DNA of 64,000 bases from Thermoplasmata archaeon. Lineage in GTDB: Archaea; Thermoplasmatota; Thermoplasmata; Sysuiplasmatales; Sysuiplasmataceae. Below the pieces are notes generated by a model. That model was not told where the DNA came from and ran no database searches. It saw only the letters and a program-made list of their open reading frames with translations. The position numbers and the translations under genes were made by a program. Position 1 is the first letter of the stretch; every line of letters starts with the position of its first letter. Of this stretch, positions 8,911-53,362 are shown in pieces. The stretch is from NCBI GenBank assembly GCA_021806165.1, contig JAJZXY010000002.1:62001-126000 (forward strand), read 5' to 3'.

Positions 8911-9933
8911 ATGAGGGGCGGCATATGCCTTGGCGGCACATTCAACACAATACATGATGGGCACATGTCCATGCTCAGGCTTGCATTCAGACTGGGCGGA
9001 AAGGTGTACATAGGGCTTACATCGGACGCAATGGCGCTGGGGTCGAGGAGTGCAGTCATACCATATGCCAGGAGACTCGCTGCCCTCAGGAGGGCGTGCT
9101 CCAGGCTGGGCAGAAACTATGAAATAATGATGCTGGACGAACCTTACGGCTATTCCACCCGGATAAGGAAGCTGTCAGGCATCGTTGTATCAGAGGCGAC
9201 CGCCTTCAGGGTAGAGGAGATAAATAAAATCCGCTCTGGCAGGGGATATCAGGCGCTGAAGGCACATGTGGTCCCCCTCATACGCTCCTTCAACGGCCTC
9301 CCTCTCAGCTCCACAAGGGTCATTGCAGGGGATTGTGACAGGAAGGGCCGCCTCACGAGGAGGCTCAGGATCGGAATAGGGTCATCGAACAGGAACAAGT
9401 CAGGTGCGGTGCGGGATGTCTTCCGCCTTTACAGGAGGGAGATTGGAGACCCTGTCTTCCGCACATGCTCGCCCGACTCCGGTGTTCCGGAGCAGCCATT
9501 CGAGAAGGAGACTGTGGCAGGCGCGGCAGCGAGGGCGATGGCCGCAGCCGAGGGCAACGATTTGGGCATAGGTATTGAGGCGGGCCTCTTCAGGTCCGAG
9601 GAGCTGCATGCTGTCTTCGACGTGCAGTACTGCGTGATACTGGACAGGGCGGGCCGCATGACCTCCGGCCATGGAATGGGATTTGCCTATCCGCCCGCAG
9701 TCCTGGACGGAGTGGCAAGGGGAATGTCGGTGGGTGAAATCATGTCCGAGATCACGGGCATAGACGGCATAGGTGCCAGGGGCGGGGCGATAGGCTACCT
9801 CTCCCGCGGCAGGATGAACAGGAGGGAGCTGACAAGGCAGGCTGTGCTATCCGCCCTCCTGCCAAGGCTCAATCCGCATCTGTACACATCCCTTCCCGGG
9901 AGCACCGGGCCGTTCGAGGAAGTTAAGCGCTGA
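8911..9933 (+). CDS. coaD: Fusion of archaeal phosphopantetheine adenylyltransferase and DUF84 inosine/xanthosine triphosphatase
   Basis: Residues 1 to about 148 are an archaeal-type PPAT, which makes dephospho-CoA from 4'-phosphopantetheine and ATP: GGTFNTIHDGHMSML contains the nucleotidyltransferase TxxH/HxGH-type motif, and GLPLSSTRVIAG the downstream ST-R site. Residues from about 151 (LRIGIGSSNRNKSGAV) to about 325 match the DUF84/YjjX inosine-xanthosine triphosphatase family, with GIGIEAGLF and YCVILDRAGR. A shared DUF84 role would be cleansing of ITP/XTP. GTP-dependent dephospho-CoA kinase, the next CoA step, is encoded at 25718. The last 6 bp overlap the antisense tRNA-Ser gene. Confidence 0.88.
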   Translation: MRGGICLGGTFNTIHDGHMSMLRLAFRLGGKVYIGLTSDAMALGSRSAVIPYARRLAALRRACSRLGRNYEIMMLDEPYGYSTRIRKLSGIVVSEATAFRVEEINKIRSGRGYQALKAHVVPLIRSFNGLPLSSTRVIAGDCDRKGRLTRRLRIGIGSSNRNKSGAVRDVFRLYRREIGDPVFRTCSPDSGVPEQPFEKETVAGAAARAMAAAEGNDLGIGIEAGLFRSEELHAVFDVQYCVILDRAGRMTSGHGMGFAYPPAVLDGVARGMSVGEIMSEITGIDGIGARGGAIGYLSRGRMNRRELTRQAVLSALLPRLNPHLYTSLPGSTGPFEEVKR

Positions 9934-10026
9934 GGGGGAGATTCGAACTCCCGAGTCGCAGAGCGACACCGGCTATCCTGACGGATCTCAAGGCCGGCGC
10001 CTTGAACCGGGCTTAGCTACCTCAGC
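9928..10026 (-). tRNA. tRNA-Ser(UGA) with a 12-nt anticodon-loop intron
   Basis: Reverse strand reads acceptor GCTGAGG pairing with CCTCAGC, an anticodon stem CCGGC/GCCGG, a long variable arm (GTCGC TCT GCGAC) typical of Ser, and T-arm GGGAG TTCGAAT CTCCC, discriminator G. The anticodon stem closes only if 12 nt are removed between positions 37 and 38, giving loop CTTGAGA with anticodon TGA. The 5' end overlaps the pheT stop by 10 bp on the same strand and the 3' end overlaps the antisense coaD-fusion stop by 6 bp. Confidence 0.93.
9975..9986 (-). other. tRNA-Ser(UGA) intron, 12 nt, position 37/38
   Basis: The precursor folds as a bulge-helix-bulge: outer helix CCGGC/GCCGG, central helix CTTG/CAGG (one T-G pair), bulges AGA and ATA. 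Cleavage after the second base of each bulge removes ATCCGTCAGGAT and restores a 7-base anticodon loop. Confidence 0.85.
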
Positions 10027-26954: not shown

Positions 26955-27018
26955 CCGCCCTCCTGATGCTCAGGGATGCGGGCCTGTAGTGTAGTTTGGA
27001 TATCACAGGGGCCTCCGG

Positions 27019-27033
27019 TTAATGTCAGGAGAA
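27019..27033 (+). other. tRNA-Arg intron 1, 15 nt, position 37/38
   Basis: Outer helix GGGGC/GCCCC, central helix CTCC/GGAG, bulges GGT and AAA: a canonical bulge-helix-bulge with fully paired 4-bp centre. Cutting after the second base of each bulge removes TTAATGTCAGGAGAA. Confidence 0.88.
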
Positions 27034-27054
27034 AGCCCCTGACCCGGGTTCAAA

Positions 27055-27074
27055 AAACATCAGTGTATTGAAAT
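27055..27074 (+). other. tRNA-Arg intron 2, 20 nt, T-loop position 59/60
   Basis: Outer helix CCGGG/CCCGG is the T-stem itself, central helix TTCA/TGAA, bulges AAA and ATT. Cutting after the second base of each bulge removes 20 nt and restores TTCAAAT exactly. Confidence 0.85.
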
Positions 27075-27157
27075 TCCCGGCAGGCCCGTTTTGCCTTAGG
27101 CCGCCCATGCATCAAGGGCAAAAAGCTATTGTAACTGGGAAGGCATCTCGCATCAGG

Positions 27158-27919: not shown

Positions 27920-30900
27920 TCAGATGACTGAATCCACTTCCTTCCTGAGCAGTCCGAGCTCGTTGGCAGACAGAGTCTCAGGGTTCAGGGACAGCAGAAG
28001 CACAGCGCCGCTCTTCGCGGAGATGTCCCTCAGGTGCTGCACCAGTTTCACCACCGTCTGGAATCCATTGTTGGACACCAGGTATTCTATGCCGTCTATC
28101 AGGCCGATGCCCGTCTGCCTGGCAAAGAAATCACTCAGCTGAAGGGATATCTTTTCAAGGTCGTTAGGCCTGATTGCCCTGGGGTCGCTGAGCGTTGAGA
28201 GCCAGAGCACTGTTGCACCCTCGAGCCCGTACTTCTTCCCGAGTTTGTCGGGGAATTCCCTGGTGAGGCACAGCCCCGCCACGCCGCTCTGTAGTGCCGA
28301 AGTGAAGAGTGCGTATGCCTTCTCCGGCTTTTCCTCGAAGACTGCATAGGTGCTTCCAGCCTCCATCACAATAGAGTCGTCCTTTGGCTCGTCAGCCTCA
28401 GGGGCTGCGGGTTCGGCTTCAGCGGGAGCAGGCTCAGCCTCCGGTGGAGCGCTCCTTGAGAGTGCTATGACCAGCCTGCTCTGGTCTATGCGCCACGACT
28501 CGCTTATCTCCCCCCTGGCCTCCTCCACCATGTTCAGCGCTGAAATCCTGCACTCGGATGTAATTGAATCCTTCCATTCATAGATGGCATCCGTCAGTGT
28601 GCCGCCGGCGGCTATGTTCACGACCACCTGCTCGTCCACCCTGAGCCCCAGGTCCTTCCTCATCTTCTGAATGCGTCTCATGACCTCCCTTGCCAGAGAC
28701 TCCATCTCCAGCTCCTTCGTCATGTTGAAGTCGATATAGACAGTCCCGCCGCTGAAATCCACCGACGCCACGTTCGGCGGGAGAGAATAGCTGAATGAGA
28801 CCATGTTTTCCTCAATCTTAATTATCTGGCCTTCAACGCCGAGCGTGTACGAACCCTTCCTTATGCCGTTGATTATCTCAGCCGCAGGCCTGGCCTTCAG
28901 CAGCAGGGCTATCTTACCTGACCACTGCCTGTACACCTTCCCTATGGCATTGGGATTGGGTATCACTGTCAGCACAAGCTCCTCCCATTCCTCATTGGAG
29001 GGGAGAAGCTTGCTTGCCTTCGCATTGCACTGCTTTTCGATTATGTCCAGTGTGCGGCCGATAGCCCTTCTCGATGCGTCATCCTTCGGCTTGACTATGA
29101 AGCGCTGCAGCGGCCAGCGCAGTTTCATCCCCGCCTCCTGCCTGGACTTCAGTATGAGTTCCGTGACCTCCCTGGCCATTGCCATGTCAGTCTCCAGCTT
29201 GTGGTCCACGAGAACCTCATTGACCTGTGGCCACGATGCCATGTGCACCGAAACGCTCTCGGGATTCATTGCCCTGTATATCTCCTCGGCGATGAACGGT
29301 GTGACAGGCGCCATCAATTTCATCAGTTCAGTGAGAGTGTAATGCAGAACTGTATAGGTGGCCTCCTTCTGCGGATCCTCACCCTCCGTCCAAGTCCGCC
29401 CGCGGACAAGCTTGACATACCATCTCGACAGGTCGTCCACGATGAACTTCTCGATCGTCCTGCAGTACTTGTGGAGTTCAAGCTTCTCAACATGGACTGA
29501 GCACTGTGCAATTGTGTCCTGCAGGCTTGACAGGAGCCACCTGTCCTCCAGCTTGATCTCCCTGGAGAATGTTTTCCACTGCACCCTCTTCGGCTCGAAT
29601 GCGTCCAGTTCCATGTAGGTGGATGCAAAGTTGTACACATTCCACAGGATGTTGAGCATCCTGGACGCGTTTTTGGGCCCGTCTGGCTGGAAGGATAGAT
29701 CATCCCACGGGGGCCTGGAGCTCAGGAGGTAGAAGCGGAGCGGGTCTGCACCCTCCCTGTTCATAACCTCCATGGGGTCAACCACGTTGCCAAGGCTCTT
29801 GTGCATCGGCCTTCCCTTTGCATCATTCACCCAGCCGTGCAGCATCGCAGACTCGAAGGGCGCTCTCCCGAATACTATGAGGGATGTGGACAGCTGGGAG
29901 TTGAACCACCCTCTTGTCTGGTCTCCAGCTTCAACAATCCACTTGCCTGGCCACCACCTGTCCAGCTCCTCCCTGGTGGATGGATAGTTCAGGGATGCCC
30001 ACGAGCATATGCCTGAGTCGACCCAGACATCAAGCACGTCCGGAATCCTGTTCATGGTTCCGCCGCACTTGGGGCAGTCGAACGAAACTCCATCTATGGC
30101 CGGCCTGTGAAGGTCCATGCCTGACTCGTAGCCGTGTCCAGCCGAAAGCTCACCAGTTGAACCGATCACCCTTGTCTCGGAGCAGGAGGCGCAGCGCCAT
30201 ACGGGCAGCGGCGTTCCCCAGAATCGCTGCCTTGAAATGCACCAGTCCTTCAGGTTCTTTGCCCACTCGGCCTGTCTGGACGAGCCCGCCCAGTCTGGCA
30301 CCCAGTGGATACCGCCAATCTGCTCAAGCATCCTTTCCCTGAGCTCGGTGGCCCTTATGTACCACTGCCTGGTGGACCTGTAGATGATAGGCGTCTTGCA
30401 CCGCCAGCACGTGCCGTACCTGTGCTCTACCGTAGCGCGGTGATAGAGCAGACCCCTGCGGTCAAGCTCCTCCATTATCGTCTCATTTGACTGCAGAACC
30501 CTTTTTCCAGCCAGCTCCGCACCCGTTCCCTCGACATATGTTCCGTCATCGGCGACAGGGGAATAGATCGTAAGGCCGAACCTGGTGCCAAGGTCAAAAT
30601 CCTCCGGCCCGTGCCCGGGTGCGGTGTGCACCAGTCCGGTGTATTCTGTTTCAACAGTATCTGAAGGGAGGACGGTCCATGCATTCTCGCTTGCCTCACC
30701 GGGTGCTGCAAACCCCTCCAGCGGGTATTCATAGCGCGTGCCCGCCAGTTCGCTTCCCTTCATGCTGCGTATGACTTCATACTCCTCCTGACCGGTGAGC
30801 ATCCCTATATCCTCCGCCTTTTCCTCAAGCAGAATGAGCCTCTGGGGCTGGGAGCCTGCCTTCCTGAATTCAATGAGCGCATATTCCTTGTCCGGATGCG

Positions 30901-31603
30901 CGGCAACCGCCATGTTTGCGGGGATGGTCCAAGGGGTGGTTGTCCATATCAGCAGGAAGTCGTCCGAATCGCGTACCTTGAGCTTGACGTATACGCTCGG
31001 ATCTTTCCTGTCCACATACTCTATTTCTGCCTCTGCGAGCGCCGTGCTGCACCTCGAGCACCACTGGGTGCTCCTTTCACCTTCGAACAGCAGGGCCCTC
31101 TCATGTGCCGTCCTTATCATCGACCATGCGGCTTCGGTGAACTCCGGCTTTATGGTCATGTAGGGTGAGGCCCAGTCCATCCATACTCCAAGCCGGATGA
31201 ACTGTTCAGTCATATTGTTGAGTCTTGTGAGCGCAAATTTCTTGCATTCCTGGACGAACTTGTCTATGCCTATCTTCTCAATGTCCCTCTTCGAACGGAG
31301 GCTGAATGACTTTTCAACCTGGACCTCTATCGGAAGGCCGTGCATGTCCCAGCCGGGCTGGTCACGCACGTTGAAATCATTCATCCTCCAGTACCTGATT
31401 CGAAAATCCTTGAGGAGCTTGTTCATCGCCGTCCCGACATGTATGTCGCCCGTAGTGTAGGGGGGGCCGTCAAGGAAGTATATCCTGTCGCCGCCGGAGC
31501 GGAGGTCCTTAAGCCGCTCATATATGTTGTTCCGTACCCAGTACTCTGCTGAACGCTTCTCAACGGCCAGCGGGTCGTAGTTTCCCTCTGCTTTCTTTAT
31601 CAT
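27920..31603 (-). CDS. ileS: Isoleucyl-tRNA synthetase with C-terminal DUF835 domain
   Basis: Class I synthetase charging tRNA-Ile, 1227 residues from ATG 31603. The archaeal core is complete: PPYTTGDIHVGTAMNK (HIGH equivalent), editing domain with TTPWTIPANMAV, zinc-type CWRCKTP and CPKCGG pairs, and MHKSLGN (KMSKS equivalent). The anticodon-binding region runs to about residue 1050. Then come a 26-residue Ala/Pro/Glu-rich linker and about 145 residues (STYAVFEEKPEKAYALF, LCLTREFPDKLGKKYGL, TVLWLSTLSDP, IGLIDGIEYLVSNNGF) that match DUF835, a domain usually appended to archaeal signalling proteins. The fusion is in one uninterrupted frame. Confidence 0.95.
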   Translation of the reverse strand: MIKKAEGNYDPLAVEKRSAEYWVRNNIYERLKDLRSGGDRIYFLDGPPYTTGDIHVGTAMNKLLKDFRIRYWRMNDFNVRDQPGWDMHGLPIEVQVEKSFSLRSKRDIEKIGIDKFVQECKKFALTRLNNMTEQFIRLGVWMDWASPYMTIKPEFTEAAWSMIRTAHERALLFEGERSTQWCSRCSTALAEAEIEYVDRKDPSVYVKLKVRDSDDFLLIWTTTPWTIPANMAVAAHPDKEYALIEFRKAGSQPQRLILLEEKAEDIGMLTGQEEYEVIRSMKGSELAGTRYEYPLEGFAAPGEASENAWTVLPSDTVETEYTGLVHTAPGHGPEDFDLGTRFGLTIYSPVADDGTYVEGTGAELAGKRVLQSNETIMEELDRRGLLYHRATVEHRYGTCWRCKTPIIYRSTRQWYIRATELRERMLEQIGGIHWVPDWAGSSRQAEWAKNLKDWCISRQRFWGTPLPVWRCASCSETRVIGSTGELSAGHGYESGMDLHRPAIDGVSFDCPKCGGTMNRIPDVLDVWVDSGICSWASLNYPSTREELDRWWPGKWIVEAGDQTRGWFNSQLSTSLIVFGRAPFESAMLHGWVNDAKGRPMHKSLGNVVDPMEVMNREGADPLRFYLLSSRPPWDDLSFQPDGPKNASRMLNILWNVYNFASTYMELDAFEPKRVQWKTFSREIKLEDRWLLSSLQDTIAQCSVHVEKLELHKYCRTIEKFIVDDLSRWYVKLVRGRTWTEGEDPQKEATYTVLHYTLTELMKLMAPVTPFIAEEIYRAMNPESVSVHMASWPQVNEVLVDHKLETDMAMAREVTELILKSRQEAGMKLRWPLQRFIVKPKDDASRRAIGRTLDIIEKQCNAKASKLLPSNEEWEELVLTVIPNPNAIGKVYRQWSGKIALLLKARPAAEIINGIRKGSYTLGVEGQIIKIEENMVSFSYSLPPNVASVDFSGGTVYIDFNMTKELEMESLAREVMRRIQKMRKDLGLRVDEQVVVNIAAGGTLTDAIYEWKDSITSECRISALNMVEEARGEISESWRIDQSRLVIALSRSAPPEAEPAPAEAEPAAPEADEPKDDSIVMEAGSTYAVFEEKPEKAYALFTSALQSGVAGLCLTREFPDKLGKKYGLEGATVLWLSTLSDPRAIRPNDLEKISLQLSDFFARQTGIGLIDGIEYLVSNNGFQTVVKLVQHLRDISAKSGAVLLLSLNPETLSANELGLLRKEVDSVI

Positions 31604-31678
31604 CGAAGGCACCGATTGGAGGAGGACTAGGGGGATATGTTATTTAAAAACAGCCTGCAGACTATGCGCCAGCGAATC

Positions 31679-53263: not shown

Positions 53264-53362
53264 CGCCGAGGGGGAGATTTGAACTCCCGTGGTGCGGAGC
53301 ACCAGTGGCTGACCCTGGATATCACTCGAGGCCACCGCCTTACCGGGCTGAGCTACCTCGGC
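53264..53362 (-). tRNA. tRNA-Ser(CGA) with a 14-nt anticodon-loop intron
   Basis: Reverse strand: acceptor GCCGAGG/CCTCGGC with discriminator G, long Ser-type variable arm GGTGC TCC GCACC, T-arm GGGAG TTCAAAT CTCCC. The anticodon stem GTGGC/GCCAC closes after removal of 14 nt between positions 37 and 38, giving loop CTCGAGA and anticodon CGA. Related to the tRNA-Ser(UGA) gene in body sequence and intron position. Confidence 0.92.
53311..53324 (-). other. tRNA-Ser(CGA) intron, 14 nt, position 37/38
   Basis: Outer helix GTGGC/GCCAC, bulges AGT and TCA, central helix CTCG/AGGG with three pairs (one T-G) and one G-A mismatch, so a slightly relaxed bulge-helix-bulge. Confidence 0.78.

Follow-up and report, generated by a model that had tools for sequence, protein, structure and literature searches.

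The 64,000-nucleotide stretch of a Thermoplasmata archaeon genome analyzed here (the window; contig JAJZXY010000002.1, positions 62,001–126,000) encodes an isoleucyl-tRNA synthetase (IleRS) whose reading frame continues into a C-terminal DUF835 domain. Comparison across genomes indicates that this tail, first predicted from the window sequence alone, is an ancient, mostly vertically inherited feature of Thermoplasmata IleRS and not an isolated oddity. New here are families with two IleRS types of which one is broken, and the finding that, in the pairs compared, DUF835 is the best-kept part of the broken tailed copies. That the tail is the best-conserved part of copies lacking catalytic motifs suggests that it has a job of its own, separable from catalysis.

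The ileS gene, defined by open reading frame translation, Pfam, and NCBIfam, lies on the minus strand (27920–31612), as do all features given below for this protein; it starts at GTG (31612) or at an ATG three codons on (31603), stops at 27920, and encodes 1230 residues. The IleRS core, with catalytic, editing, and anticodon-binding regions (residues 1–850; 29063–31612), matches Pfam tRNA-synt_1 (E = 7.8e-116) and Anticodon_1 (E = 1.8e-34) and the NCBIfam ileS equivalog TIGR00392 (906.8 bits, cut-off 621.4). Alignment locates the HIGH-type motif HVGT (residues 58–61; 31430–31441), GDQTRGW (residues 563–569; 29906–29926), the KMSKS-type motif PMHKS (residues 602–606; 29795–29809), which is a variant (M-H-K-S), and the editing-site motifs TTTPWT and HTAPGHGPEDFDLG. 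Since no other IleRS was found in the source genome, which is 96% complete, the protein is presumably a functional enzyme charging tRNA-Ile. The DUF835 tail (residues 1084–1230; 27923–28363) matches PF05763 over residues 1094–1225 (100.2 bits against a gathering cut-off of 33.1, E = 1.1e-28, model positions 3–135 of 136), and did so at E = 2e-30 when searched alone; no Response_reg (REC) domain was found in the protein with Pfam. The predicted joining of a complete IleRS to DUF835 in one frame is thus borne out, and the interval assigned to it (27920–28440) fits linker plus tail. An Ala/Pro/Glu-rich linker is present as described, but is about 30 residues long (1054–1083; 28364–28453) rather than 26, and although the in-frame order was correct, the core does not lead directly into it: DUF5915, the C-terminal domain of IleRS (residues 856–1053; 28454–29047; Pfam E = 4.5e-18), sits between the anticodon domain and the linker.

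Structure prediction, proposed earlier as a check, gave a confident fold: an AlphaFold2 model of the tail from 15 IleRS tails has a predicted local distance difference test score of 95.1 and a predicted TM-score of 0.90, and a Foldseek search of the PDB returned ArlH/FlaH (4yds) as the best match (E = 1.6e-7), followed by the KaiC-like PH0284, RecA, and KaiC. In this model the tail is predicted to be a RecA/KaiC-fold module without the ATP-binding loop. The probable Walker A-equivalent position (28304–28348), placed by a strand-loop-helix in the model and by alignment, reads YAVFEEKPEKAYALF; the loop after the first strand is FEEKPEK in the window protein, and the Walker A motif GxxxxGK[ST] is absent from all 15 aligned tails. 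A putative Walker B-like strand, GLIDGIEYL (residues 1170–1178; 28079–28105), was placed by alignment and corresponds to model strand 85–90. The fold assignment rests on the structure model, since comparing a 15-row profile of the tail with a single KaiC-like protein encoded in the same genome gave no match. A sequence search of the PDB yielded nothing but stretches of about 28 residues matching designed pentatricopeptide repeats, which were taken as spurious. The missing P-loop agrees with the name “inactivated KaiC” (iKaiC) given to DUF835, which archaeal response regulators use as an output domain (Galperin et al., 2018; PMC5847659). The IleRS tail shares with iKaiC the Pfam domain, the KaiC/RecA kind of fold, and the lack of a P-loop; however, iKaiC is known on REC and PAS proteins (PMC5847659), whereas here the domain ends a housekeeping synthetase and belongs to a distinct, supported subclade. 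ArlH/FlaH, the KaiC-like ATPase of the archaellum and the best structural match of the modeled tail, also gives a weak NCBIfam match to it (E = 0.0024, far below cut-off), but binds ATP (4yds is an ATP-Mg form), in contrast to a tail without Walker A.

The window's order and family comprise the same eight genomes in our sample, whose families, genera, and genomes are labeled f, g, and G (f1 being the window's family). As the single-frame fusion recurs in five of the seven further genomes of the family, each separately assembled, it is not an assembly artefact; the sixth has a contig fragment holding the C-terminal half of IleRS plus tail, and the seventh an N-terminal IleRS fragment at a contig end. 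A fusion unique to the window's organism or family was rejected, the same architecture being found in many families of the class and in most Thermoplasmata families sampled, as IleRS frames of 1240–2929 residues ending in DUF835; named records with it include Methanomassiliicoccus sp. (L118, L123, L144), other Methanomassiliicoccales, and soil and groundwater Thermoplasmatota. Most Thermoplasmata carry one to three helix-hairpin-helix (HhH_5) and zinc-ribbon modules between DUF5915 and DUF835, and some have longer low-complexity stretches there; because the window's family has a short linker only, without HhH or zinc ribbons, its sequences appear to be a reduced form. The survey of archaeal IleRS proposed with the original prediction was made within the window's phylum, where 390 genomes were searched with a profile of IleRS tails. 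Scores of the IleRS-tail type (about 170 bits and more) were confined to the class; no such tail was found outside it in this sample, and the best outside match (155.7 bits) is a 345-residue protein in which DUF835 accompanies a sub-threshold V4R domain. A second type of IleRS, about 1000–1080 residues long and roughly 31%–38% identical to the window IleRS, never carried the tail in the sequences read (f9, f13, f17, f26, f31, f34), and a quick tree places this tail-less type in a supported clade apart from the tailed one.

Both types occur in nine families (f3, f4, f7, f11, f16, f18, f22, f25, f28). In each of the 21 genomes whose two copies were both read, one copy is intact or nearly intact and its counterpart has broken catalytic motifs; the f22 copies read come from separate genomes. 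Seven families (f4, f7, f11, f16, f22, f25, f28) have a broken tailed copy and an intact tail-less IleRS: KMSKS is gone in all seven, HIGH in f4, f7, and f28 and partly in the others, and DQxRGW is often lost too. DUF835 is nonetheless kept; in f4 the match is weak (66 bits in G049) and none turned up in G010. These copies are open frames over 1300–2900 codons. One contig (L266, G045:C27, 9.8 kb) holds a 2929-codon frame running from a KMSKS-less IleRS through a long middle part to the DUF835 tail. The f4, f7, and f28 copies are probably kin to the tailed type, as judged from shared DUF5915, HhH, and DUF835, their long branches making placement in the IleRS tree unsure. The idea that breakage always strikes the tailed copy was rejected, since f3 and f18 show the opposite pattern: there the tail-less IleRS has the damaged motifs, and its tailed counterpart is intact in f3 and slightly altered in f18. 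In these two families, the tail-less IleRS at L275–L278, L281, and L282 have a broken KMSKS or HIGH and are kept alongside an intact tailed IleRS. Tested broken copies of f11, f16, and f25 pass the ileS model (812, 733, and 703 bits against 621), so automatic annotation would label them working IleRS, whereas those of f7 and f4 fall below the cut-off (346 and 443 bits) and the f28 copy had no ileS match at E 1e-100.

In eight of eight broken-copy pairs (f11, f16/f22, f25, f7), which are not independent and represent four broken lineages, DUF835 shows higher identity than both catalytic halves, the editing region, and the anticodon region (0.98 versus 0.70–0.87 in f25, 0.84 versus 0.54–0.73 in f7, and 0.92 versus 0.61–0.76 in f11). 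The domain is the most conserved part in one of 14 pairs from single-IleRS families (f30/f32), and its identity lies above all core regions in both f3 pairs too. Synonymous divergence (dS) has reached saturation in many comparisons; in those short of full saturation, the ratio of nonsynonymous to synonymous divergence (dN/dS) for DUF835 is 0.012 in f25 and, roughly because dS is near 2, 0.036–0.066 in f7. In most broken tailed copies, the anticodon domain ranks last or close to last in conservation.

Relatives of the tail occur on other proteins. A careful tree unites all 40 IleRS tails and nine domains from other proteins in a supported clade within DUF835 (99/97); an exclusive clade of IleRS tails was rejected (approximately unbiased test, p = 3e-4), because tail-type domains of other proteins nest inside it. 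A membrane-anchored protein and a 178-residue protein of f1 group with the IleRS tails of that family (98/95), as do zinc-ribbon/helical proteins of f7 with those of f7 (98/95), and the nine also include single-domain proteins from f18 and f30. The closest non-IleRS relative of the window family's tail is the cytosolic end of a membrane-anchored extracytoplasmic repeat protein. The simplest reading would be an old IleRS–DUF835 fusion, from which the tail passed to other proteins on several later occasions; this direction is inferred, because the tree is unrooted. In f6 genus g59 (G124, G261, G363) the only other DUF835 protein over the cut-off is 315–321 residues long, and in G124, the one read, it is a REC-DUF835 response regulator; DUF835 also occurs on GAF/PAS proteins, and on at least eight other proteins of the window genome.

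Further DUF835 proteins were noted in passing. A 702-residue protein (G000:C24, L062:2243–4348, plus strand) combines a DnaA-type AAA+ domain (PF00308, E = 1.3e-47) with a C-terminal DUF835, and DUF835 frames of 680–712 residues occur in other genomes of the window's family. A bactofilin-like (sub-threshold) N-terminal part is fused to DUF835 at G000:C14, L057:2869–4281 (plus strand), with a second DUF835 protein (197 residues) about 2 kb downstream.

We propose, at what we judge to be an even chance, that the tail serves as a protein-protein adaptor, bringing IleRS into an assembly of DUF835 proteins. It most likely takes no part in aminoacylation; it would pair with other DUF835-bearing or KaiC/ArlH-like proteins, and this pairing would place the synthetase in a larger assembly, with possible effects on translation or localization. 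The prime candidate partner in the window's family is the membrane-anchored extracytoplasmic repeat protein. The proposal draws on the tail being separable from catalysis, conserved on broken enzymes, found on membrane, sensor, and scaffold-like proteins, and devoid of a P-loop, and tail copies on proteins of the same lineage are as expected if a self-pairing domain had been duplicated to make a partner. Of the earlier suggestion that the tail binds a signaling partner or nucleotide, the nucleotide part is weakened by the absence of a recognizable P-loop from a RecA/KaiC-fold domain, while localization or regulation through a partner is the best reading, gaining indirect support from conservation on broken copies and from the lineage-specific tail copies on other proteins. 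Several observations weigh against the adaptor proposal. Within the tailed type, the tail was lost and the enzyme kept in f21, in genera g66 and g84 of f29, and in f6 outside g59; the breaking of the tail-less copy in f3 and f18 means that a broken IleRS is not always kept on account of the tail; and the genes that recur beside ileS (FEN1, aconitase-X-like, and pentose-phosphate epimerase-like, judged by eye) suggest no partner. The role of the tail may also be weaker in the window's own family, as it is among the least conserved parts there in three of four pairs (0.52–0.55 versus 0.59–0.78 for the core, in cross-genus pairs and one within-genus pair), and about equal to the core (0.76) in the closest pair.

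The explanation ranking next is regulatory input: a DUF835 signaling protein, e.g. REC-DUF835, would meet the tail and turn tRNA-Ile charging up or down. The response-regulator role of DUF835 (PMC5847659), its presence on GAF/PAS proteins, and the REC-DUF835 protein that is the sole other one over the cut-off in G124 favor such control, but no REC-DUF835 protein was seen among the ten DUF835 matches of the window genome and the tail is kept on copies apparently unable to charge tRNA, and we consider it unlikely. That the tail acts with the HhH and zinc-ribbon modules to aid binding of tRNA-Ile or the ribosome, like other appended synthetase domains, would account for the presence of these modules between core and DUF835 in most families, and RecA folds can bind nucleic acid. 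However, the window form lacks the modules, DUF835 elsewhere sits on sensors, membrane, and scaffold-like proteins, and in most broken copies it is DUF835 that is conserved while the anticodon domain is least conserved or nearly so, which makes RNA binding a distinctly poor candidate.

The same relaxation of the anticodon domain in most broken tailed copies counts against a tailed IleRS that also senses isoleucine or uncharged tRNA and reports through DUF835, the broken copies being sensors only. This idea, to which we give as little credence as to RNA binding, fits broken copies being maintained with long open frames and, wherever it could be measured, a low dN/dS, including the tail-less ones of f3 and f18 (0.13 and 0.11). 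Least probable is an ancient, near-functionless passenger kept because it is harmless: weak conservation in the window's family and loss in some lineages would suit it, but the tail is present in most families of the class, strongly conserved in most, and on broken copies better conserved than every core region compared. Beyond the adaptor proposal itself, P-loop-less KaiC modules might form a plug-in scaffold of Thermoplasmata, joining IleRS as a core member, the DnaA-type AAA+ ATPase, bactofilin-like proteins, sensors, and membrane-anchored proteins in one network, with a dead IleRS surviving to carry the module where another IleRS charges; this wider scheme is doubtful, if somewhat less so than regulatory input.

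Three tRNA-like sequences lie elsewhere in the window. Positions 26975–27110 (plus strand) resemble by eye a tRNA gene whose anticodon loop and T arm are interrupted by introns, called by neither ARAGORN nor Rfam; 53264–53362 (minus strand) has an Rfam tRNA match of 41.5 bits and is absent from the ARAGORN list; and 9927–10026 (minus strand) is a tRNA match with a four-base anticodon call that may hold an intron.

In keeping with the original prediction, a literature search found no account of IleRS-DUF835 or of such IleRS paralogues, although absence there is not proof of novelty. IleRS with a GNAT domain (NCBIfam NF040702) likewise joins IleRS to an extra domain, but a different one (424 bits on the window protein against a cut-off of 1999). 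According to one review (PMC4394549), the C-terminal appended domain of human IleRS is needed for the multi-synthetase complex, and archaeal complexes such as that of leucyl- (LeuRS), lysyl-, and prolyl-tRNA synthetases lack auxiliary scaffold proteins; the IleRS tail resembles such appended domains in lying outside the core and in its proposed assembly role, but no DUF835 or KaiC-like appended domain is described in the passages of the review consulted. Coexisting bacterial IleRS1 and IleRS2 are a literature parallel to the two-copy genomes. LeuRS-I of Sulfolobaceae, which cannot aminoacylate although it still makes the adenylate, and whose C-terminal domain is acidic (Weitzel et al., 2020, reviewed in PMC9437257), is likewise an archaeal class I synthetase paralogue kept though unable to aminoacylate, as the broken IleRS appear to be from their motifs; the IleRS paralogues differ in losing KMSKS/HIGH and keeping DUF835.

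As Methanomassiliicoccus, in which the tail occurs, has a cultured member, M. luminyensis (PMC10673518), the question may be open to experiment. Across much of an archaeal class, a universal translation enzyme is tied to a domain family so far known from signaling, and the tail kept on broken copies is a natural experiment that separates two functions and offers a route to the role of DUF835.
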